Shown one piece after another: positions 55,511-64,000 of a DNA stretch of 64,000 bases (its first letter is position 1; the number at the start of each line of letters is the position of its first letter). This stretch comes from Halpernia humi. GTDB taxonomy: Bacteria; Bacteroidota; Bacteroidia; Flavobacteriales; Weeksellaceae. Where the stretch lies: positions 1 to 64,000 of the forward strand of contig NZ_FNUS01000003.1 of the NCBI RefSeq assembly GCF_900108025.1, in the 5' to 3' direction. Under the pieces are notes generated by a model, which did no database searches, had not been told where the DNA came from, and saw only the letters and a list, made by a program, of their open reading frames with translations. Made by a program: the position numbers and the translations under genes.

Positions 55511-58039
55511 TTAATCTCTGTTTTTTAAAAGCAACCACATGCTTTTTGAAATTATTTCTGATGAATTTTTAACAGTGTAAGAATATGTAACCCAATATGT
55601 TGAAGTAGGAAGCACTCGCCTTTCAGTATTTTTACCATCCCAAAAATAATTTTCAGAATCGTTAGTTCTTTCGTAAACCTTTTTACCAAAACGGTCAAAT
55701 ATTGCTAATTTTAAATCGGAATAATCTTTTAGTAGTGAATAATTCCAAACATCATTTATTCCATCACCGTTGGGCGTGAAAACATTGGGCAACGTTACCT
55801 CAACTGGTGGCTCTAATGGTTTTTTTAATAATTTAATTTTCTTAATTATAAAACAGCCATTTGTGGTTGAAATTCGCACAAAAACTTCAGTCGGATTATC
55901 TGTTGTAAAAGCAAGTAAATTAAAGATTTCATTCACTTGGTTTTCGGCATCAGATTGCGATAGATAAAAATGAAAAGTTTCGCCATTAGTATTATTAATT
56001 ACGGAACTCAAATTATAAATGTAATTTGGATCATCAAAACTGTCATTTAAAATTTCTGATTTTACGTCTCCAATTGCTGCTGCGAAAACGGAGAAATTCA
56101 CTTTAACAACTTCATAAAATCCGTTTGCTGCGGTCATTTTATAAACCAAGCGATCATTTGCATTAAATCCCGCATTATTTGTAACTTTTATTATACCATT
56201 TTCAATCACCGCAGAACCATTATTTGGTGGTGTTAAAATCTCAAGTTTTATGAAATTCAGATTATCATTTGGTTTAGAAAACTTGGGAACAATAGTAAAA
56301 TTTGGGCAAATTTCTCCTAAATCTAAAGTAGAGATTACATAAGGGCAATCATCAACTTGAACGGGTTTTGTAGTGTAAGTAAATGTGGAATAAGACAAAA
56401 CGCAAGTGTAGGAACCTGGAACAATTGGGACATAAGTTGGCGAATTTGCACCCGGAATATCTACGCCGTTTAATTGCCATTGAAAGCCTTCAAAATCAAT
56501 ATTATTTAATGATAATAAAACTTCTTCCTGAATACAATTTCCTTTTTTTATAATATAAGGATCATTAGAAAAACCGGTGTAATGACTTGCAAAACCACGC
56601 GTATCTTCAAAATCATTTGGCGCAAGTCTTTCATGCCCGTTTAAAATATTTAAAACTAAGCCAGAATTAGCTGAAACTTTCAAATTTTCTAATGTGTTTT
56701 TTGGAATTTTTACTTGAAAATATTTGTAAGAATCTGTCCCTTTTATGTTAAACGGTCCAGTTGAAGTATTTACCGGAACATCATTAATAAAAGGAATTTG
56801 ACCTGTTGGAAGATAGATATTAAGCCTTGAATCTAAACTTACTTTTGCACCAACTTTAGAAAACTGCGGTACAAAATCTACCGTTCCGGGAAGACTAGAA
56901 TCTAAAGGCAAAACCAAATCCATGCTTTGGCAAAAAGTTCCAAAATAATTACCTTTATACTGATTTGGAGTTCCTGCTGTGAATTGGTAGCAATAAATTT
57001 TAGCTGAAGACTTCACATATAATCCAAAATTTCTTTGCACGTCACTGTTTGTGGCATCATGTTCAATAAATTTATTGGGATTACTTATAATCGTTGAATA
57101 ATACTGTCCTTTATTTAAAGTAATTGGAGTAGTTTCATCATTAAAATAAACTTTAGTATTATCTTCTGTAGCAATGATAAGCGCTCCTTCTGAACTTCCT
57201 TGCTGAGTAGAAAAACCCATCCTCAAGAAATATTCTTGCCCAAGATTTTTCACCGGGAGCGATTGGTCATAAAGCAAATTCCAAGATTGATCAAAGGCAA
57301 CTTCGCCAATATAATTTCCGTTTACAACGGAAACTGGCTGATCAGCAACAATCTCCGCTCCTATAAAATCATTAAATACATCATTGCTAAAAGCATAAGG
57401 AATATCTGCAGGATTGTAACTGTAATTATCTTTTGCACTTATTTTTATATTATAAGATTCGCCTTTGTTTAAAATAATATTAAACTGAGAATGTTTTTGT
57501 CCATCAGCAAAAACAATACGGTTTTGTTTGTTGTTCACCGTAACTTTCGTATTGTCTTTTGTAGCATAGATACTTGTAAAAAAAACACCATAGTTTTCTA
57601 CATAAGACGGTGCTGCAGCAATAAAAAAATGCTTTCCAATAGCAGTTTTTCCTTTAGAAGTAATAACTTCTTCACCCGAACTACTGCTAATTCTATAACT
57701 GGCGTAAAAACTATTAGCACCCGCAATATGCAAACCACGCGTTACAGGTTTAAATAAAAATTTGTCGCCCGTGAAATACACACTTGAACTTAGGTCATAA
57801 ACAATTGGCGAAGATTTACTGAGCATAAAACTTGCGATAACTGTATCTCCACTAAATAATTTTACTAAAAATGGCGTTTCGTGTGGTGTAGAAAGATATA
57901 TTTTTCCCTCATAAAATTCAGGCGAGCCTTCTTTTGCAAACCAGTGAATTGGCGCAAACCAATGCTCCAAATCTAGTTGTGCTTTTGCAGAAAAACTACA
58001 AAATAATATAAAAAATAGTATGACCTTTCTATGAAACAT
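55511..58039 (-). CDS. T9SS type B cargo protein, paralogue A
   Basis: An 842-residue surface protein with a signal peptide ending SAKAQ, then LDLEHWFAP, an N-terminal region resembling the IgGFc-binding-type domain (about 25-450: ATKDNTKVTV, LNKGESYNI, ADQPVSVVNGN), an Ig-like module around LNNIDFEGFQWQLNGVDIPG (about 505-560), a cadherin-like linker and a type B sorting tail (LPNVFTPNGDGINDVW, AIFDRFGKKVY, KSMWLLLKNRD). The protein at 58069-60576 is its close paralogue. The tail marks it for SprA-dependent export. A role in adhesion or colony structure is inferred. Confidence 0.9.
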   Translation of the reverse strand: MFHRKVILFFILFCSFSAKAQLDLEHWFAPIHWFAKEGSPEFYEGKIYLSTPHETPFLVKLFSGDTVIASFMLSKSSPIVYDLSSSVYFTGDKFLFKPVTRGLHIAGANSFYASYRISSSSGEEVITSKGKTAIGKHFFIAAAPSYVENYGVFFTSIYATKDNTKVTVNNKQNRIVFADGQKHSQFNIILNKGESYNIKISAKDNYSYNPADIPYAFSNDVFNDFIGAEIVADQPVSVVNGNYIGEVAFDQSWNLLYDQSLPVKNLGQEYFLRMGFSTQQGSSEGALIIATEDNTKVYFNDETTPITLNKGQYYSTIISNPNKFIEHDATNSDVQRNFGLYVKSSAKIYCYQFTAGTPNQYKGNYFGTFCQSMDLVLPLDSSLPGTVDFVPQFSKVGAKVSLDSRLNIYLPTGQIPFINDVPVNTSTGPFNIKGTDSYKYFQVKIPKNTLENLKVSANSGLVLNILNGHERLAPNDFEDTRGFASHYTGFSNDPYIIKKGNCIQEEVLLSLNNIDFEGFQWQLNGVDIPGANSPTYVPIVPGSYTCVLSYSTFTYTTKPVQVDDCPYVISTLDLGEICPNFTIVPKFSKPNDNLNFIKLEILTPPNNGSAVIENGIIKVTNNAGFNANDRLVYKMTAANGFYEVVKVNFSVFAAAIGDVKSEILNDSFDDPNYIYNLSSVINNTNGETFHFYLSQSDAENQVNEIFNLLAFTTDNPTEVFVRISTTNGCFIIKKIKLLKKPLEPPVEVTLPNVFTPNGDGINDVWNYSLLKDYSDLKLAIFDRFGKKVYERTNDSENYFWDGKNTERRVLPTSTYWVTYSYTVKNSSEIISKSMWLLLKNRD

Positions 58040-58068
58040 TTGCGTAAAGATATTTCATTTATTTAAAA

Positions 58069-60576
58069 TCATCTATTTTTTAACAAAAGCCATTGCGAGC
58101 CTTGGTAAGTTTGCTGCACAATAGGATCAAAATAAGAATAAACCACCCATAAAGTTTGCGTTTTTAATTTTTTTTGCTGTGCGCCAAGACCATTCCACTT
58201 AAAAGATGAATTTGCCGAAGTATGCTTGAATACTAATTTCCCATAACGATCAAACACTTGAAGTTGCACGTTTTCCATCGTTTTTAAAACCGAATAATCC
58301 CAAACATCATTAAAACCATCATTATTTGGCGTGAATACATTCGGGAATAAATTGCCGTTATCTGGCGACGGATAGGGCAAAAGCAAATCTATTTTTTTAA
58401 TTATAAAACAGCCGTCATTATTTTTAACCCTTACATAAACGGCGCTTGGATCTGCTGTTCCATAATTTTCGGGTGAGGAGATGGGATTGGTTTCTGCATC
58501 TGCATCGGCCAAATTTTCGTAAAAAACAAAGCTTTCATTATTTAGATTTAAAATAGCAGAAAATAAATCATAGTAATAAACCCGGTTTGCAACATTTATT
58601 GGGCGAATTTCTGATAAAACATCAGCAATTGGGCCGTGTAAAGTATTAAAAACAATTTTCACTATTTCATAAAAACCATTCGCAGCGGTAATTTTATAAA
58701 CAAATCTGTCTTTTCCTGTAAATGCGGGATTCATCGTAATTTTAAAATTTCCATTTTCTAAAACTACATTTCCGTGTTGAGGTTGGGTTAAAATTTCTAA
58801 GTTAACAATATCTAGATTTTCATTGGGCGGACTGAACTCTGGTTTTACAAAAAACACTGGACAAACATCACCAATGTCTTTTGTTGAAATAGTGTAAGGA
58901 CAATCTTTTACCGTTATTGCATCTGTTATAAAAGTAAAATCAGCATAACTTAAAGCGCATGTGTAAACTCCTGGAAGTTGCGGTTCGTAAGTTGGCAAAT
59001 TTGCTCCAGGAATATCTACGCCGTTTAATCGCCATTGGATTTTATCAAATTGTATATTGCTAACCCTTAAAAAAACCCCTTCTTGAAGGCAATTTCCATT
59101 AACAATGATGAATGGATCATTAGAAAAAGCGGTATAACTGCTGCCAAAACCCGAATATCTTTTTCCGCCGACGGCATCTACGTTGATTCCTTTATTAGAG
59201 GTAATATTTAATGTTCCACCTGCGAGCGAGGTCGTAAAATAAGACCAACCATCTTTACCGACCATTGGTGAAAAAGGTGGTTTGTATCCATTAATTTGTA
59301 CATCTGCATCAGTTGGCGCTTTTATAGAAATTTTAGTTTCAAAAAGGTTGTTTCCAATTAAATTTACAGAAGGAATTTGAACCAAATTTTCCAAATTTTG
59401 CCGCGGATCTTGCTCATAATTTTTATCTAGAGGAAAAGATAAAAGCATTCCTTCTGGGCCGAACGTTTTATCCAAAGCTCTTGGTGGTGGATGATCGTAA
59501 ATACCACCAGAAATTTGATAGACATAAACAGGTTCTGTGGTTTTAATATACATCCCTCCTGTTTCTATAACGCGTCCTAAAATATTAGAAAAATCTGGAA
59601 TATTTCCTTTAATGAATTTTATTGGGAGATAAGGTGCCGTAAAAAAAAATTCTCCAGCGTTTAAAGTTTTTGTGGGTTGGGAATCGTCATTAAAATAAAC
59701 TTTAGTATTGTCTTTGGTGGCTATAATTAAGGCGCGTTCTGTGGGGAATTTATATGGTGTCATACCGCTTACCAAAAAATATTCTTTACCAATTTTAGAA
59801 GTCGGAATGCTTTGTTCTAAAGTAATATCCGCCGGACTTTCCCCGAAATATTGACTTTCAAAATTACCATTATCCATCACAATTGGTTTATCTGAAGTTA
59901 CTTTTGCACCTATAAACGTGGCTTCATAATCATCAATACCAAGGAGAGGATCTGCATCTTTTTTTAGTGCAACTGCCATGTAAGATTCTCCTTTATTTAA
60001 AGTAAAATCCAATTCATCTGCTGTAGAACCATCAGCGAAGACTAATCTATCATCATAATTTGAAATTTTCACGTGGGTGTTATCTTGCGTCGCCATCACG
60101 GAAATTTGATAGTTTAATATCGACCGATCTTTGTCGTACACGATATTTTGTTCCATCCCGGCAAAAAATTCTTCGCCAAGTGCGGTTTTTCCTTTAGAAG
60201 AAATAACTGTAGAGGGTGAACTAGACATCCTTAAACTGGCATAGAAACTTTTTTCGCCGGCTAGGTGAAGGCCTAATTTTGAGGTTTTCATTGCCAAGCG
60301 ATTTGCCGTGGCATAAATAAGCGCATTATAATTTTTAATTTCATATCTCACCGGCTGGCTTTTGCTTACCATCACAGAATCTACAACTTGGTTATTATTG
60401 TAAATTTTTACCTGAAACGGCGTCACTTTATCGGTTGATAAATAAAGATAAAATTGCGTCATGCTTCCACCAGAACGAAAAACAGGCGGAAACCAATGTT
60501 CCAAATCCAATTGTGCTTTCGCGGAAAAACCACAAAATATTAAGAAAACGAAAAAAAGCTTTATCAGATGCTGCAC
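58069..60576 (-). CDS. T9SS type B cargo protein, paralogue B
   Basis: An 835-residue paralogue of 55511-58039, with identical layout: signal peptide to SAKAQ, LDLEHWFPP, IgGFc-binding-like repeats (ATQDNTHVKI, LNKGESYMAV), an Ig-like module with IQWRLNGVDIPGANLPTY, and a type B tail (FPNVFTPNNDGFNDVW, VFDRYGKLVF, GSQWLLLKNR). Its stop is 29 bases before paralogue A on the same strand, so the pair is probably one transcript. Local divergence is largest in the N-terminal propeller-like part. Substrate or partner is unknown. Confidence 0.9.
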   Translation of the reverse strand: MQHLIKLFFVFLIFCGFSAKAQLDLEHWFPPVFRSGGSMTQFYLYLSTDKVTPFQVKIYNNNQVVDSVMVSKSQPVRYEIKNYNALIYATANRLAMKTSKLGLHLAGEKSFYASLRMSSSPSTVISSKGKTALGEEFFAGMEQNIVYDKDRSILNYQISVMATQDNTHVKISNYDDRLVFADGSTADELDFTLNKGESYMAVALKKDADPLLGIDDYEATFIGAKVTSDKPIVMDNGNFESQYFGESPADITLEQSIPTSKIGKEYFLVSGMTPYKFPTERALIIATKDNTKVYFNDDSQPTKTLNAGEFFFTAPYLPIKFIKGNIPDFSNILGRVIETGGMYIKTTEPVYVYQISGGIYDHPPPRALDKTFGPEGMLLSFPLDKNYEQDPRQNLENLVQIPSVNLIGNNLFETKISIKAPTDADVQINGYKPPFSPMVGKDGWSYFTTSLAGGTLNITSNKGINVDAVGGKRYSGFGSSYTAFSNDPFIIVNGNCLQEGVFLRVSNIQFDKIQWRLNGVDIPGANLPTYEPQLPGVYTCALSYADFTFITDAITVKDCPYTISTKDIGDVCPVFFVKPEFSPPNENLDIVNLEILTQPQHGNVVLENGNFKITMNPAFTGKDRFVYKITAANGFYEIVKIVFNTLHGPIADVLSEIRPINVANRVYYYDLFSAILNLNNESFVFYENLADADAETNPISSPENYGTADPSAVYVRVKNNDGCFIIKKIDLLLPYPSPDNGNLFPNVFTPNNDGFNDVWDYSVLKTMENVQLQVFDRYGKLVFKHTSANSSFKWNGLGAQQKKLKTQTLWVVYSYFDPIVQQTYQGSQWLLLKNR

Positions 60577-60601: not shown

Positions 60602-60626
60602 TAAAAAAAACCATCCGATTGGATGG
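60602..60626 (-). terminator. Terminator of the sigma/GIN operon
   Basis: CCATCC (60611-60616), GATT, GGATGG (60621-60626), followed on the minus strand by eight T. It lies 22 bases past the stop of the DUF4252 lipoprotein gene and closes the operon. Confidence 0.8.
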
Positions 60627-60648
60627 CGAAATAATTTTAACGAAAAAT

Positions 60649-61158
60649 TTATTTATTTGCTGTATTTATCAAGTTTGTGATGTCTTCTGGCGAAAATTTT
60701 CCACGAATGTCTATGAATACCAAATCATTCCCAGAATTGACGGTCAACATTAATTTCTTAATAAAATTACCGCTTTGCTGCGCTTTTATATTGACGTTTT
60801 CGCCGTTATGTTTGATGGACATCCAATCTTCGTAATTGTTATCTAGAAGGTTTTTTGCAAAGTTTTTGACCATTTCTGTGTTGCCATTTTCCACGGTTAG
60901 TATTTTCACTTTAGTAACTTTTCTAATTAAATTCATAACTTCTTTAGAATCTACATCATTATCATCCCGCAACGCTTTTCTAATCATCGGTTTTGCTAAA
61001 AAAAGCGGCACATTCACACTCACATAGTTGGCGTCAGAATTAGATAAATCTTCTCCGTTAAAATAGGCAATATTTGGTTTTGATGAGACCACACAAGATT
61101 GAAGCATCATAAAAAATAAGGCTAAAAAGGCGGTTTTTATAAGAATTTTTCGATTCAT
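60649..61158 (-). CDS. DUF4252 lipoprotein
   Basis: A 169-residue lipoprotein with a lipobox LQSC at about residues 19-22. The mature part is a single DUF4252 domain with the patterns PMIRKALRDDND, KVTKVKILTVENG and FIDIRGKFSPEDITNLINT. The family is of unknown function and is often encoded beside GIN-domain proteins and ECF sigma factors in Bacteroidota, as here. It lies four bases past the end of the larger DUF4252-GIN gene and is the last gene of the operon. Confidence 0.85.
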   Translation of the reverse strand: MNRKILIKTAFLALFFMMLQSCVVSSKPNIAYFNGEDLSNSDANYVSVNVPLFLAKPMIRKALRDDNDVDSKEVMNLIRKVTKVKILTVENGNTEMVKNFAKNLLDNNYEDWMSIKHNGENVNIKAQQSGNFIKKLMLTVNSGNDLVFIDIRGKFSPEDITNLINTANK

Positions 61159-61162
61159 AATT

Positions 61163-62449
61163 TTAGAATTTTACAAGTTTACCACCAGAAATTTTACTGA
61201 TATTTCCGGTTATATTTTTGGGGGTTCCTTTGTATCGAATTTTTCCACCGCTTGATGCGTCTGCTTTTAAATCCCCTGAAACATTGATGGTTAAATTTGC
61301 TGCAGAAGTGGCGTTACTTTGGGAGTTTTCAACCTCTAAATTTTGTGCATTGCAGTTTGCCGCGCTCGTTACTTCGAAATTGGCTTTATAAACTTTGCCG
61401 TTAATTGTGGCGTTGCTTCCGCTCGTGCCTTCAAAATTTAACTGGTTCGCTTTGAGGTTTGCATTTAGATTTGCGCCAGAAGTAACTTCAAAATTGGCGA
61501 GGTTCTTTACCTCAAAATCGCCATTAACCAGTGATCCAGAAGTGGTTTCAATTTTTATGTCGTTTCCTTTTAAAGTATTTAAAACCACAAAACTTGAACC
61601 TGAAGAGGTAGAAATCCTAGAAAGTTCTGGCGCCACAACATTCACAAATATTTTTTTAAAGTTCAAATTTTTGTTCGAAGGGTTTTTAATTGAAATTTTC
61701 AAAGTATTTCCTTGTACAACGGTAGAAATATACTGCAATTTATCTTCATCGGTTTCCACACGAACTTCCTGATTCTCACCCTGTGTGAAATTTACTTTTA
61801 TGCCCGAAGTTACTTCAATACCCGTAAAACTGCCGAGTTTACGCTCTTCAGAATCGCGGTTTGTAACTTTTGAATTAGAAGAATTGGTGTTTGAGTTTGT
61901 AAAAGAATTGGTGCTTGTAAAAGTTTGGGTTTCGTTCACCAATTTATTTACGTCGTCCATAGAGATTTTTCCATCGAGCATCATCAAAACAGTGTTGTCT
62001 TCTGAAGAAATATTGAGCAATAAATCATCTAAAATACCATCTTTTGCGCCAGCAGAAAGAAATTTTATCTTGTTGTCTTTGCTGTTTACAGACATTAATT
62101 CTTCATAATTCAGGCTTTTCAAAATCGAAGAAATATCGGTTTGTATTCCGGTATAATTGAGGTTGGATTTTAAACCTTTTCCATCTGCTAAATTTCCGTT
62201 TGGTTTTTCGATAATCAATATTTTTAGGCCATTTATTTTGCTTAACAATGGTTTTATTTGGTCTAATTCGCCATCGCCCAAATTCAATTTATTGAGCATG
62301 CTAAACATTGGTTTCGAAATTTTGATGGAAGTTACCCCTTCAGAATCTTGATAGCGATCAAACAATTGGTCTAATTTTTCTTTTTGGGCCGAAACAGTGG
62401 TAATTGCGGCGCAAAAAAATGCGATTATTAATGCTATTTTTTTATACAT
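61163..62449 (-). CDS. DUF4252-GIN domain protein (adhesin head-like)
   Basis: A 428-residue secreted protein with a signal peptide (ending VSAQ) and two modules. Residues about 25-185 are a DUF4252 domain (FSMLNKLNLGDGEL, GLKILIIEKPNG, VLMMLDGKISMDDVNKL). A Ser/Asn-rich linker follows, then a GIN/DUF2807 domain (about 205-428) with repeated EVTSG, ETTSGSL and EGTSGSNA parallel-beta-helix turns, resembling a putative autotransporter adhesin head. No lipobox or T9SS tail is seen. It shares the DUF4252 fold with the next gene. Confidence 0.86.
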   Translation of the reverse strand: MYKKIALIIAFFCAAITTVSAQKEKLDQLFDRYQDSEGVTSIKISKPMFSMLNKLNLGDGELDQIKPLLSKINGLKILIIEKPNGNLADGKGLKSNLNYTGIQTDISSILKSLNYEELMSVNSKDNKIKFLSAGAKDGILDDLLLNISSEDNTVLMMLDGKISMDDVNKLVNETQTFTSTNSFTNSNTNSSNSKVTNRDSEERKLGSFTGIEVTSGIKVNFTQGENQEVRVETDEDKLQYISTVVQGNTLKISIKNPSNKNLNFKKIFVNVVAPELSRISTSSGSSFVVLNTLKGNDIKIETTSGSLVNGDFEVKNLANFEVTSGANLNANLKANQLNFEGTSGSNATINGKVYKANFEVTSAANCNAQNLEVENSQSNATSAANLTINVSGDLKADASSGGKIRYKGTPKNITGNISKISGGKLVKF

Positions 62450-62476
62450 GATTTCTTTTTTTTAATTTAATTAATT

Positions 62477-63181
62477 TTAATTATCTGGGTTCAAAGTACT
62501 TAAAACCTCCGCTTGATCAACACTTCGGTTTACGTTATTTGCTAAAATCTGGAACGAATATTTCGTGACATCAATCGCGTCTTTTTCACTGGTAATTTTG
62601 TGTCCGTTGATGATGACGTATCCGCTTTCGTATTCAGGCTTTTCTTTGGATTTTTTAGAAGGTTTGTTTTCCACGTATCTCGCTACAACTTTTCTTTTCA
62701 TTCGTGCTTTTTTAGGTAAAATTTCATCTAAAACACTTTTGTTATCGGCCATTTTTTTCGGTTCTGAAACTGTTTTTACTTCTTGTGGCTCGTAAGTATT
62801 TTCTTGCAAAACCTCTACTTTTGCTTTTTTGTAAATATCGGCTGTTGCCAATTGGCTATTCACTTTTTCTTGTGCGTTTTCTTTATTATTAAACCAAAAA
62901 GCAGCGATAGAAAACATTAAAACCAAACTTGCGGCCAACCAAAGCCAGTTGAAATTTGATGATTTTGTAGCAATAGGAATTACTTTTTCATTACCCGTCA
63001 AAGCCATAAAATCGTTAAAATTTAATCGTGATTTTTCTTGCTTTTCTTGTTTTAAAGATTCAAAATAAAGCGATTCTTCCGCCGATAAATGTTCAGCGTT
63101 TTTTAATAATTGTTCTTCTGAAACGCTTGTTTCTCCGTCGTAAAATTTCTGGAGTAATTTATGATAGTGTTCTGTGTTCAT
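62477..63181 (-). CDS. One-TM protein, probable anti-sigma partner
   Basis: A 234-residue protein with a cytosolic N-terminal part (about 1-75) containing two short helices and an acidic stretch, a single membrane helix at about 77-97 (WLWLAASLVLMFSIAAFWF), and a charged periplasmic C-terminal part with KKARMKRKVV. The gene overlaps the sigma factor gene by 23 bases, the usual position for an anti-sigma factor. No zinc HxxxCxxC motif is seen, so the call is by context. It is not clearly a FecR-type protein because the C-terminal half is short. Confidence 0.6.
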   Translation of the reverse strand: MNTEHYHKLLQKFYDGETSVSEEQLLKNAEHLSAEESLYFESLKQEKQEKSRLNFNDFMALTGNEKVIPIATKSSNFNWLWLAASLVLMFSIAAFWFNNKENAQEKVNSQLATADIYKKAKVEVLQENTYEPQEVKTVSEPKKMADNKSVLDEILPKKARMKRKVVARYVENKPSKKSKEKPEYESGYVIINGHKITSEKDAIDVTKYSFQILANNVNRSVDQAEVLSTLNPDN

Positions 63182-63665
63182 AACTCATTAATTGGGTAAT
63201 TTGTGCTTTTACTTTCTGCCTTGCGCGCATAAGGTTAACTCTAACTGCGTTTTCTTCCATTTCCAAAATTTCAGAAATCTCAGAAATTTCGTGCTCTTCT
63301 ACGTCTTTTAAGTGAATCACGAGACGTTGTTTTTCTGGTAATTCATTAATATATTTTAAAATAAAATCTTTTAAATTATTGGTTTCCATCTGAAATTGTT
63401 CTGAAGTGTGAAGTTTTACTTCTGCGAAATTCATTTTTACTTGATGGTGTTTTAAACGGTTTAAGCAATCATTTTTCACACATTTTAATATGTAAGATTT
63501 AAGATTTGCATATTGTAAAAGTTCTTCTTTTTTCTGCCAAAATTTCAATAATAAATCTTGCACCAAATCTTCTGCTTCATCTGAACTTTGCAAATATTTT
63601 TTCGCAAAACGGTACATTTCATCTTTCAGGGAAAAGACCGTAGTTTCAAATGTTTGTAAAGTCAT
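63159..63665 (-). CDS. ECF RNA polymerase sigma factor
   Basis: A 168-residue group IV sigma-70 factor. The sigma-2 domain is seen as DEAEDLVQDLLLKFW (about 29-43), and sigma-4 as LPEKQRLVIHLKDVEEHEISEISEILEM with the helix-turn-helix NAVRVNLMRARQKVK. It directs core polymerase to a small regulon, presumably including its own operon. It overlaps the one-TM gene by 23 bases and heads the four-gene cluster of sigma, partner, DUF4252-GIN and DUF4252. No carbohydrate SusC/D genes are nearby, so it is not of the usual transport-linked FecI type. Confidence 0.9.
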   Translation of the reverse strand: MTLQTFETTVFSLKDEMYRFAKKYLQSSDEAEDLVQDLLLKFWQKKEELLQYANLKSYILKCVKNDCLNRLKHHQVKMNFAEVKLHTSEQFQMETNNLKDFILKYINELPEKQRLVIHLKDVEEHEISEISEILEMEENAVRVNLMRARQKVKAQITQLMSYEHRTLS

Positions 63666-63865
63666 AGTTTAGTTTCTAATATTAAGACATTTAAAGGTAA
63701 AGTTTTATTACATCTTAAAATTAAATAAAAGTGAAATTTAATTTTAATGCTAAAGTTTCCTAATTTTTAAAGGAAAAAATATCTGAAATTTTAAAATTGC
63801 ATAATTCTTGTTAAAGTATCGTTAAAACTGAAACAAGGGTACTTTTTATGCTACCAATTTATTAG

Positions 63866-63905: not shown

Positions 63906-64000
63906 ATGAAGAACAGTTTAAAAAAATTATTACCACTTGCCATAGTAGGGGTAATTTCTGCAGGTACTACTTTTGGAGCCATTAATTATTTTGGTACTAC
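63906..64000 (+). CDS. degQ: Do/HtrA-type serine protease, N-terminal fragment
   Basis: Only the first 31 codons are inside the window: MKNSLKKLLPLAIVGVISAG, then TTFGAINYFGTT. This signal or anchor sequence closely resembles the start of flavobacterial Do-family periplasmic serine proteases. The frame runs off the right edge open. The protease is divergent from the ECF sigma operon. The assignment rests on the signal sequence alone. Confidence 0.5.
   Translation, partial: MKNSLKKLLPLAIVGVISAGTTFGAINYFGT

Follow-up and report, generated by a model that had tools for sequence, protein, structure and literature searches.

A conserved ECF sigma factor operon with DUF4252 and GIN proteins in Halpernia humi, and a predicted promoter code for envelope genes

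This article concerns a four-gene operon on the minus strand of a 64,000-nucleotide stretch of the Halpernia humi genome (assembly GCF_900108025.1, contig NZ_FNUS01000003.1, positions 1 to 64,000; hereafter "the window"). It encodes an extracytoplasmic function (ECF) sigma factor, a partner protein with one transmembrane segment, a DUF4252-GIN fusion protein and a DUF4252 lipoprotein. We consider it likely, at a probability of about 0.72, that the operon is an autoregulated envelope-stress switch made of an ECF sigma factor and a membrane anti-sigma factor. Computationally, the operon is conserved, a promoter motif stands before its sigma gene, and this motif recurs before envelope genes and co-occurs with the sigma factor across genomes. 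The operon kind is already known, since studies in Porphyromonas gingivalis and Prevotella bivia and a curated sigma family exist; the promoter code and its likely targets appear to be new. Published work is cited throughout from excerpts of the papers.

In the unstressed cell, the sigma factor would be held at the inner membrane by cytoplasmic helices at the N-terminus of the partner, and the partner's periplasmic tail would receive the signal. A disturbance of the envelope would free the sigma factor, which, together with RNA polymerase, would read TGTAAY-N17-TGTC in Weeksellaceae or TGTAAC-N16-CGTC in Flavobacteriaceae. This would raise transcription of the operon itself and, in trans, of genes for the outer membrane and for export. 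The fusion protein and the DUF4252 lipoprotein are exported and share the operon, so their place of action would be the periplasm or the outer membrane, where they would serve as effectors or feed back on the partner. That this sigma factor reads the TGTAAY and TGTAAC promoters we infer from sequence; the signal, and the role of DUF4252 and GIN in the switch, are likewise put forward here as proposals.

The operon and its conservation

The sigma gene (63159..63665, minus strand, as are all features of the operon) encodes 168 residues that belong to NCBIfam family NF058625 sigma_PG0214, the PG0214/GFO_1088 family (165.1 bits over residues 1-163, cut-off 130), with Sigma70_r2 and Sigma70_r4_2 above their Pfam cut-offs. 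It overlaps by 23 bp the gene of the partner (62477..63181; 234 residues, no cysteine), a probable anti-sigma factor as predicted from its position and an AlphaFold2 (AF2) model. The DUF4252-GIN fusion gene (61163..62449; 428 residues, with a signal peptide read from the sequence) follows and is separated by a 4 bp gap from the gene of the DUF4252 lipoprotein (60649..61158; 169 residues, with the lipobox LQSC, again by sequence reading). A terminator-like hairpin with a T run lies at 60610..60627. A terminator scan found four such sites in the region against 2.2 expected from shuffles, so this call rests mainly on location. The coordinates, the overlap, the gap and the hairpin bear out the four-gene operon closed by a terminator that an earlier note on this DNA had described.

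How widely is this arrangement kept? The sigma factor scores above cut-off in 23 of 118 genomes of the phylum, in 12 of 40 relatives, including 8 of 25 from the window's own family (which we take to be Weeksellaceae), and in 51 of 60 genera of the comparison family (taken to be Flavobacteriaceae). The presence of a partner and a DUF4252 gene after the sigma gene is a context criterion of this analysis and is not part of the NF058625 model. It describes the window and 27 of the 33 above-cut-off loci from the phylum and relatives' genomes, the exceptions being L067, L076, L087, L088, L092 and L093. These 33 loci, together with seven lower-scoring ones (among which only L083 has DUF4252), form our first locus set.

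A second set comprises 80 named loci, 20 of them from Weeksellaceae by name or similarity and 60 others, mostly from Flavobacteriaceae. All 80 have the partner, beginning no more than 700 nt from the sigma start; 77 have a DUF4252 gene downstream on the same strand, and 74 have two or more. Three have none: L128 and L150 stop just past the partner, and L167 stops about 0.8 kb on, with other open reading frames (ORFs) there. The GIN fusion is found in 19 of the 20 Weeksellaceae loci (Cloacibacterium L117 is the exception) and in 0 of the other 60. A survey of the gene order in Bacteroidota had been suggested in the earlier note, which named random gene grouping as grounds for rejection; the gene set is conserved across both locus sets, so the grouping is not chance, with the GIN fusion restricted to Weeksellaceae.

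Several individual loci deserve a mention. In L087 and L088, two proteins take the place of the DUF4252 pair downstream of the partner, and both of those from L087 match DUF4097 "Toastrack" in Pfam. An MscS mechanosensitive channel gene comes after the DUF4252 genes in L161 (by Pfam) and L135 (by sequence reading), as does an ABC ATPase gene in L084 (sequence reading). L067, from the Weeksellaceae genome G121, has the sigma factor and partner without DUF4252, and a separate GIN protein and a large protein downstream; the latter has an S41-like stretch by eye that the S41 profile does not match.

Upstream, the plus-strand gene at 63906, divergent from the operon, encodes an HtrA/DegP-like protein with Trypsin_2 and PDZ domains (Pfam; DNA past the window's end was included), as had been noticed earlier. 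An HtrA gene is divergent in L060 and L061 only, that is, in the window's genome and one relative of the same genus; the seven further first-set loci from the family lack it, and none of the 80 named loci bears an HtrA label. Given how these genes are distributed across loci, we regard GIN and HtrA as lineage additions and the sigma factor, partner and DUF4252 as the core. With HtrA divergent in a single genus and no promoter match facing its gene, we have ruled out HtrA as a member of the circuit. A secreted S41 protease divergent from the sigma gene is a candidate functional partner elsewhere. Among the upstream minus-strand genes it lies closest to the sigma gene in 56 of the 60 non-Weeksellaceae named loci, and it also occurs in ten first-set loci (L069-L075 and L077-L079; Pfam S41 on one); none was seen beside Weeksellaceae sigma genes (0 of 20 named loci).

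Directly past the terminator, on the minus strand at 55511-60576, are two tandem paralogs of about 840 residues that are type B substrates of the type IX secretion system (T9SS), with CHU_C and IgGFc_binding matches. These were considered as operon members and ruled out, because the terminator lies between and another gene occupies that place in L061, of the same genus. With HtrA upstream and the T9SS proteins downstream, the sigma gene has no SusC/D or TonB neighbours, in agreement with the earlier reading. A FecR- or SusCD-linked ECF system does not fit either: Pfam gave no FecR match, and the adjoining genes are neither SusC/D nor a TonB receptor.

The promoter motif and its predicted targets

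Spaced word pairs were enumerated in the 160 bp 5' of the sigma gene, which gave one dominant signal per family; occurrences were then counted with a regular expression that accepted any of three spacings. TGTAAY-N17-TGTC is present in 29/29 Weeksellaceae sigma loci and TGTAAC-N16-CGTC in 64/69 Flavobacteriaceae sigma loci (L148 and L152 excluded), each at one fixed spacing, although not all of these loci are independent because two sources share the same or close genomes. The Weeksellaceae motif lies 18-23 nt from the called sigma start in 26 loci and 74-77 nt from it in three. In the window, the family motif predicts an autoregulatory ECF promoter, TGTAAT-N17-TGTCTTA, at 63683..63712 on the minus strand, 17 nt 5' of the sigma start codon. 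The motif is unlike the flavobacterial sigma-A box TAnnTTTG as excerpted, and a sigma-70 promoter scan of the region returned 8 sites against 12.2 in shuffles, below expectation. Excerpts on the SM6 promoters of F. psychrophilum describe a CGT box and list ABC ATPase, ECF and anti-sigma genes. These promoters may overlap with the regulon described here.

It is important to remember how the search patterns were arrived at. Looser patterns with variable gaps were tried first, the strict fixed-gap patterns were chosen after those results, and they were then applied to larger genome sets, some of the first genomes being among them.

In Weeksellaceae, the WEEKSELLACEAE regulon search (TGTAAY-N17-TGTCTTA) found 76 sites in 25 of 60 family genomes, against 20 for the control. 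Co-occurrence was tested on the 25 sigma-scored genomes among these 60 (34 others are unscored, and G095, which is sigma-positive with 7 sites, was left out of the Fisher test). All eight sigma-positive genomes carry sites (23 in total), as do 3 of 17 sigma-negative genomes (4 sites; Fisher p 1.5e-4). When the sigma factor's own sites are removed, 15 remain in sigma-positive and 4 in sigma-negative genomes (size-weighted p 5e-4). Seven of the 65 distinct sites examined, out of 76, fall within long ORFs, and the start codon usually comes 14-25 nt past the motif. The 53 proteins behind the motif include 14 sigma factors, 11 DUF5916 outer-membrane proteins, 10 outer-membrane barrels, 5 serine hydrolases, 3 PMT_2 glycosyltransferases and 5 members of an exported family with no Pfam match; the Pfam labels of recurring targets come from one example of each. 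The exported family occurs behind the motif in five genomes (L353, L356, L374, L379 and L387), is at least 540 residues long and was tested against Pfam on L379.

The window's genome has two exact sites only, one 5' of this operon and the other, at C10:152520, some 16 nt 5' of the ATG of a DUF5916 gene; both are found again in G118, a genome of the same genus. The operon had been called self-contained; as the motif of its sigma promoter recurs before other operons, including the DUF5916 gene in the window's own genome, that description is unsupported.

In Flavobacteriaceae, 60 genomes, each from a different genus, were scanned with TTGTAACA-N14-TCGTC. The scan gave 81 sites, spread over 44 of the genomes, where the reversed pattern gave 5; 25 of the 81 sit 21-72 nt 5' of the genome's own sigma factor of this family. 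In all, 79 sites fall in the 51 sigma-positive genomes, of which 42 have at least one, and 2 in the nine sigma-negative genomes, both within long ORFs. Without the sigma factor's own sites the comparison is 54 to 2, where 6.4 would be expected in the latter (P 0.046), and at that value the co-occurrence is suggestive only. Of 80 distinct sites (81 listed, one pair identical), 11 lie within long ORFs; one of these, L319, is a real sigma promoter under an over-long ORF call.

Behind this motif 63 proteins were called, with 24 sigma factors, 11 ABC ATPases (by sequence reading 9 ABC-2 exporter-like and 2 MacB-like), 4 large exported proteins and 3 serine hydrolases, and two each of DUF4386, DUF456, DUF4870 and rhodanese-like proteins (the last by sequence reading only). 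Eight ABC-2 ATPases apparently begin at a TTG 22-32 nt past the motif. TolC appears once in the strict scan and three times in an earlier scan. Pfam matches on single examples were ABC_tran, ABC2_membrane_4, MacB_PCD, OEP (TolC), DUF456, DUF4870, DUF4386 and Beta-lactamase. This target list covers the recurring types, and in both families such targets come back from one genus to another. Two target types are common to both families despite the difference in motif: by BLAST, outer-membrane barrels and serine hydrolases that follow the Weeksellaceae motif match some that follow the Flavobacteriaceae motif.

The partner and the exported proteins

With no cysteine in 234 residues, the partner lacks HxxxCxxC, the defining motif of the zinc anti-sigma (ZAS) family, and here the earlier note was right. 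Neither Pfam, at its cut-offs, nor NCBIfam assigns it to a family. Sequence reading places its single hydrophobic segment at about residues 78-98 (62888..62950). The AF2 model, of low-to-middling confidence (predicted local distance difference test, pLDDT, 69), has short N-terminal helices, a long membrane helix over residues 78-125 and a C-terminal helix adjoining a conserved YVIING element. That element, YVIINGxxI ... TKYSFxIL (residues about 184-217; 62531..62632), is presumably periplasmic and is kept, with variation (e.g., L112 and L118), across the full-length Weeksellaceae partners of alignment A3. Against solved structures the model drew two chance Foldseek matches only, and a comparison with PDB sequences found no meaningful relative.

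The Dma/Das (ECF21) system of Bacteroides thetaiotaomicron, as excerpted, is similar in that it joins a Bacteroidota ECF sigma factor to an anti-sigma factor with one transmembrane segment and has an envelope output (vesicles). In contrast to Dma, a dual membrane-spanning protein with a C-terminal beta-barrel, the window's partner is 234 residues long and has two short strands only in its AF2 model (pLDDT 69).

From the sequence we regard the partner as a probable anti-sigma factor. It is improbable that it acts instead as an activator or scaffold, with the promoter read by another ECF sigma factor that also controls this operon. The partner does match no known anti-sigma family, and its binding of the sigma factor is putative only, but its position downstream of the sigma gene is fixed in 80/80 loci and presence of the motif follows this sigma factor across genomes. 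In addition, the 24 ECF sigma factors among the 63 proteins behind the Flavobacteriaceae motif fall into a single cluster, and a partner-like ORF comes after each of them; no other sigma family was thus seen to share the promoter.

The fusion protein passes the Pfam cut-offs for both DUF4252 (74 bits; 61940..62353) and DUF2807 (126.9 bits; 61220..61828), and the lipoprotein matches DUF4252 (68.5 bits). In the AF2 model of the fusion (pLDDT 78), the GIN part, a Toastrack-type beta-helix, aligns over 229 residues with the solved GIN fold 3lyc (VIA-align Z 30.7, root-mean-square deviation 1.9); the DUF2807 match and the solved GIN fold together make this a GIN/Toastrack domain. The DUF4252 part, compared as a domain within the fusion model, gave a weak match to 6e8a (a Mog1/PsbP/DcrB-type comparison; Foldseek E 6e-3; Z 4.6, root-mean-square deviation 5.1, 91 residues) that is under the tool's safe level. 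Comparing the lipoprotein with PDB sequences gave matches at chance level only.

The GFO_1088-GFO_1091 cluster, whose locus tags we take to be those of Gramella/Christiangramia forsetii, resembles the window's operon in its sigma factor, for which the window protein is above cut-off, and in its DUF4252 proteins: the GFO_1090 model is similar to the two in the window, and the GFO_1091 model to the fusion. It differs in that GIN is fused in the window's operon and in that the DUF4252 proteins fall under the model cut-offs: they score 74.7 and 42.4 bits against 150 for NF058626 (GFO_1090), and the fusion 26.2 bits against 115 for NF058619 (GFO_1091). With these scores, the window proteins are members of DUF4252 but not GFO_1090/GFO_1091 equivalogs.

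Could the sigma factor serve an adhesion or surface circuit, controlling display of a GIN-type adhesin with the envelope genes secondary? We find this rather unlikely. Pfam annotates GIN as an autotransporter adhesin head, deletion of the P. gingivalis GIN protein PGN_1547 lowers biofilm and attachment according to the excerpt, and the next genes past the operon encode T9SS type B surface proteins. However, Pfam and NCBIfam found neither an autotransporter (translocator) barrel nor a T9SS sorting domain on the fusion, the GIN fusion occurs in 0 of the 60 loci outside Weeksellaceae even though the same kind of operon and a like promoter occur there, and the T9SS genes lie past the terminator and are absent from that place in the same-genus genome. 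The earlier suggestion of an "envelope stress or adhesion" circuit therefore holds for a sigma/partner circuit with exported DUF4252 and GIN proteins, probably for envelope stress; for GIN an adhesive role keeps a small probability, but upkeep of the envelope and export are what the predicted targets suggest.

The GIN/DUF2807 model is one of those unified as Toastrack (DUF2154/DUF4097/DUF2807), which are modules of, and tied to, PSP/Lia envelope stress in the excerpted account (PMC11237479). The likeness extends to L087 and L088, where DUF4097 types replace DUF4252. On the other hand, the window's GIN protein has a signal peptide and a link to an ECF sigma factor, whereas the excerpt predicts an intracellular domain. 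Replacement in one lineage and fusion in another suggest a shared job for DUF4252 and Toastrack. On this basis one may tentatively propose, as a possible though doubtful extension, that the two exported DUF4252 proteins are a periplasmic sensor that would bind the partner's conserved YVIINGxxI tail and gate release of the sigma factor. GIN/Toastrack, fused to one of them in Weeksellaceae, would supply a PSP/Lia-like sensing platform, with DUF4097 Toastracks taking over from DUF4252 entirely in another lineage.

Relation to known systems and significance

The namesake of the sigma family is PG0214 of P. gingivalis, which belongs to another class of Bacteroidota than the window organism. The PG0214-PG0218 operon is alike in its order of sigma factor, putative anti-sigma factor and DUF4252, and in that its genes are raised together; it is unlike the window's in that no GIN protein is named in the excerpts and in its output, the haem genes cdhR and hmuYR. 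PG0214 (PGN_0319 in ATCC 33277, SigCH) is reported to control these genes (PMC5607195). PG_0214-PG_0218 and PG_0985-PG_0987 (sigma, hypothetical, DUF4252) are jointly up in a PG_0686 mutant, and more so under H2O2 (PMC10101095), and a PG0985 mutant is described as H2O2-sensitive. According to the excerpt of PMC7712824, the downstream genes' role as anti-sigma factors had not been worked out. In Prevotella bivia, one sigma gene and three DUF4252 genes decrease together (PMC11410844). The earlier note had thought the circuit not yet described; with a sigma factor that passes NF058625, and with PG0214/PGN_0319 and the similar PG0985 locus already mutated or profiled, this is not so. For Flavobacteriia, we found no description of the operon's function or regulon in open-licence PMC papers (supplements excluded).

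These studies also raise the alternative of a haem/iron or oxidative-stress regulator of the kind reported for SigCH and PG0985; the envelope genes would then be a by-product. The reported action of SigCH on cdhR/hmuYR, the behavior of both operons in the PG_0686 mutant and under H2O2, and the H2O2 sensitivity of the PG0985 mutant speak for it. It is nonetheless unlikely: among the target types predicted repeatedly in Flavobacteriia, to which this comparison applies, there is no known haem or peroxide gene.

A number of points weigh against the envelope-stress switch and should be kept in mind. The link between motif and sigma factor in this lineage is a prediction from sequence, and the haem output reported for SigCH (PMC5607195) is a different one. 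The loose patterns were weak in both Weeksellaceae (70 sites against 65 in the control; 9 genomes) and Flavobacteriaceae (34 against 20; 11 genomes), and most target types are not the same in the two families. In Flavobacteriaceae the comparison of sites other than the sigma factor's own (54 to 2, P 0.046) is weak, and sigma-less genomes are smaller on average. When one mismatch is allowed in the window's genome there is no enrichment (9 sites against 18 in the control), for which reason we use the exact sites only and claim no wider regulon for this organism. Lastly, the partner's AF2 model is poor (pLDDT 69) and has no recognizable solved relative.

DUF4252, GIN/DUF2807 and DUF5916 are little studied; our search of open-licence PMC papers found none on DUF5916. 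Because the promoter code points to particular targets, the switch can be put to the test immediately: at least one exact site is present in 42 of the 51 sigma-positive Flavobacteriaceae genomes, and for the window organism the code names one predicted target in trans, the DUF5916 outer-membrane protein. The GIN/Toastrack fold is thereby tied to an ECF circuit, and an ECF circuit is linked to export pumps. Should the sensor proposal prove true, Bacteroidota would have a Lia counterpart built around an ECF sigma factor, one that combines a fixed promoter code with a regulon for envelope repair.

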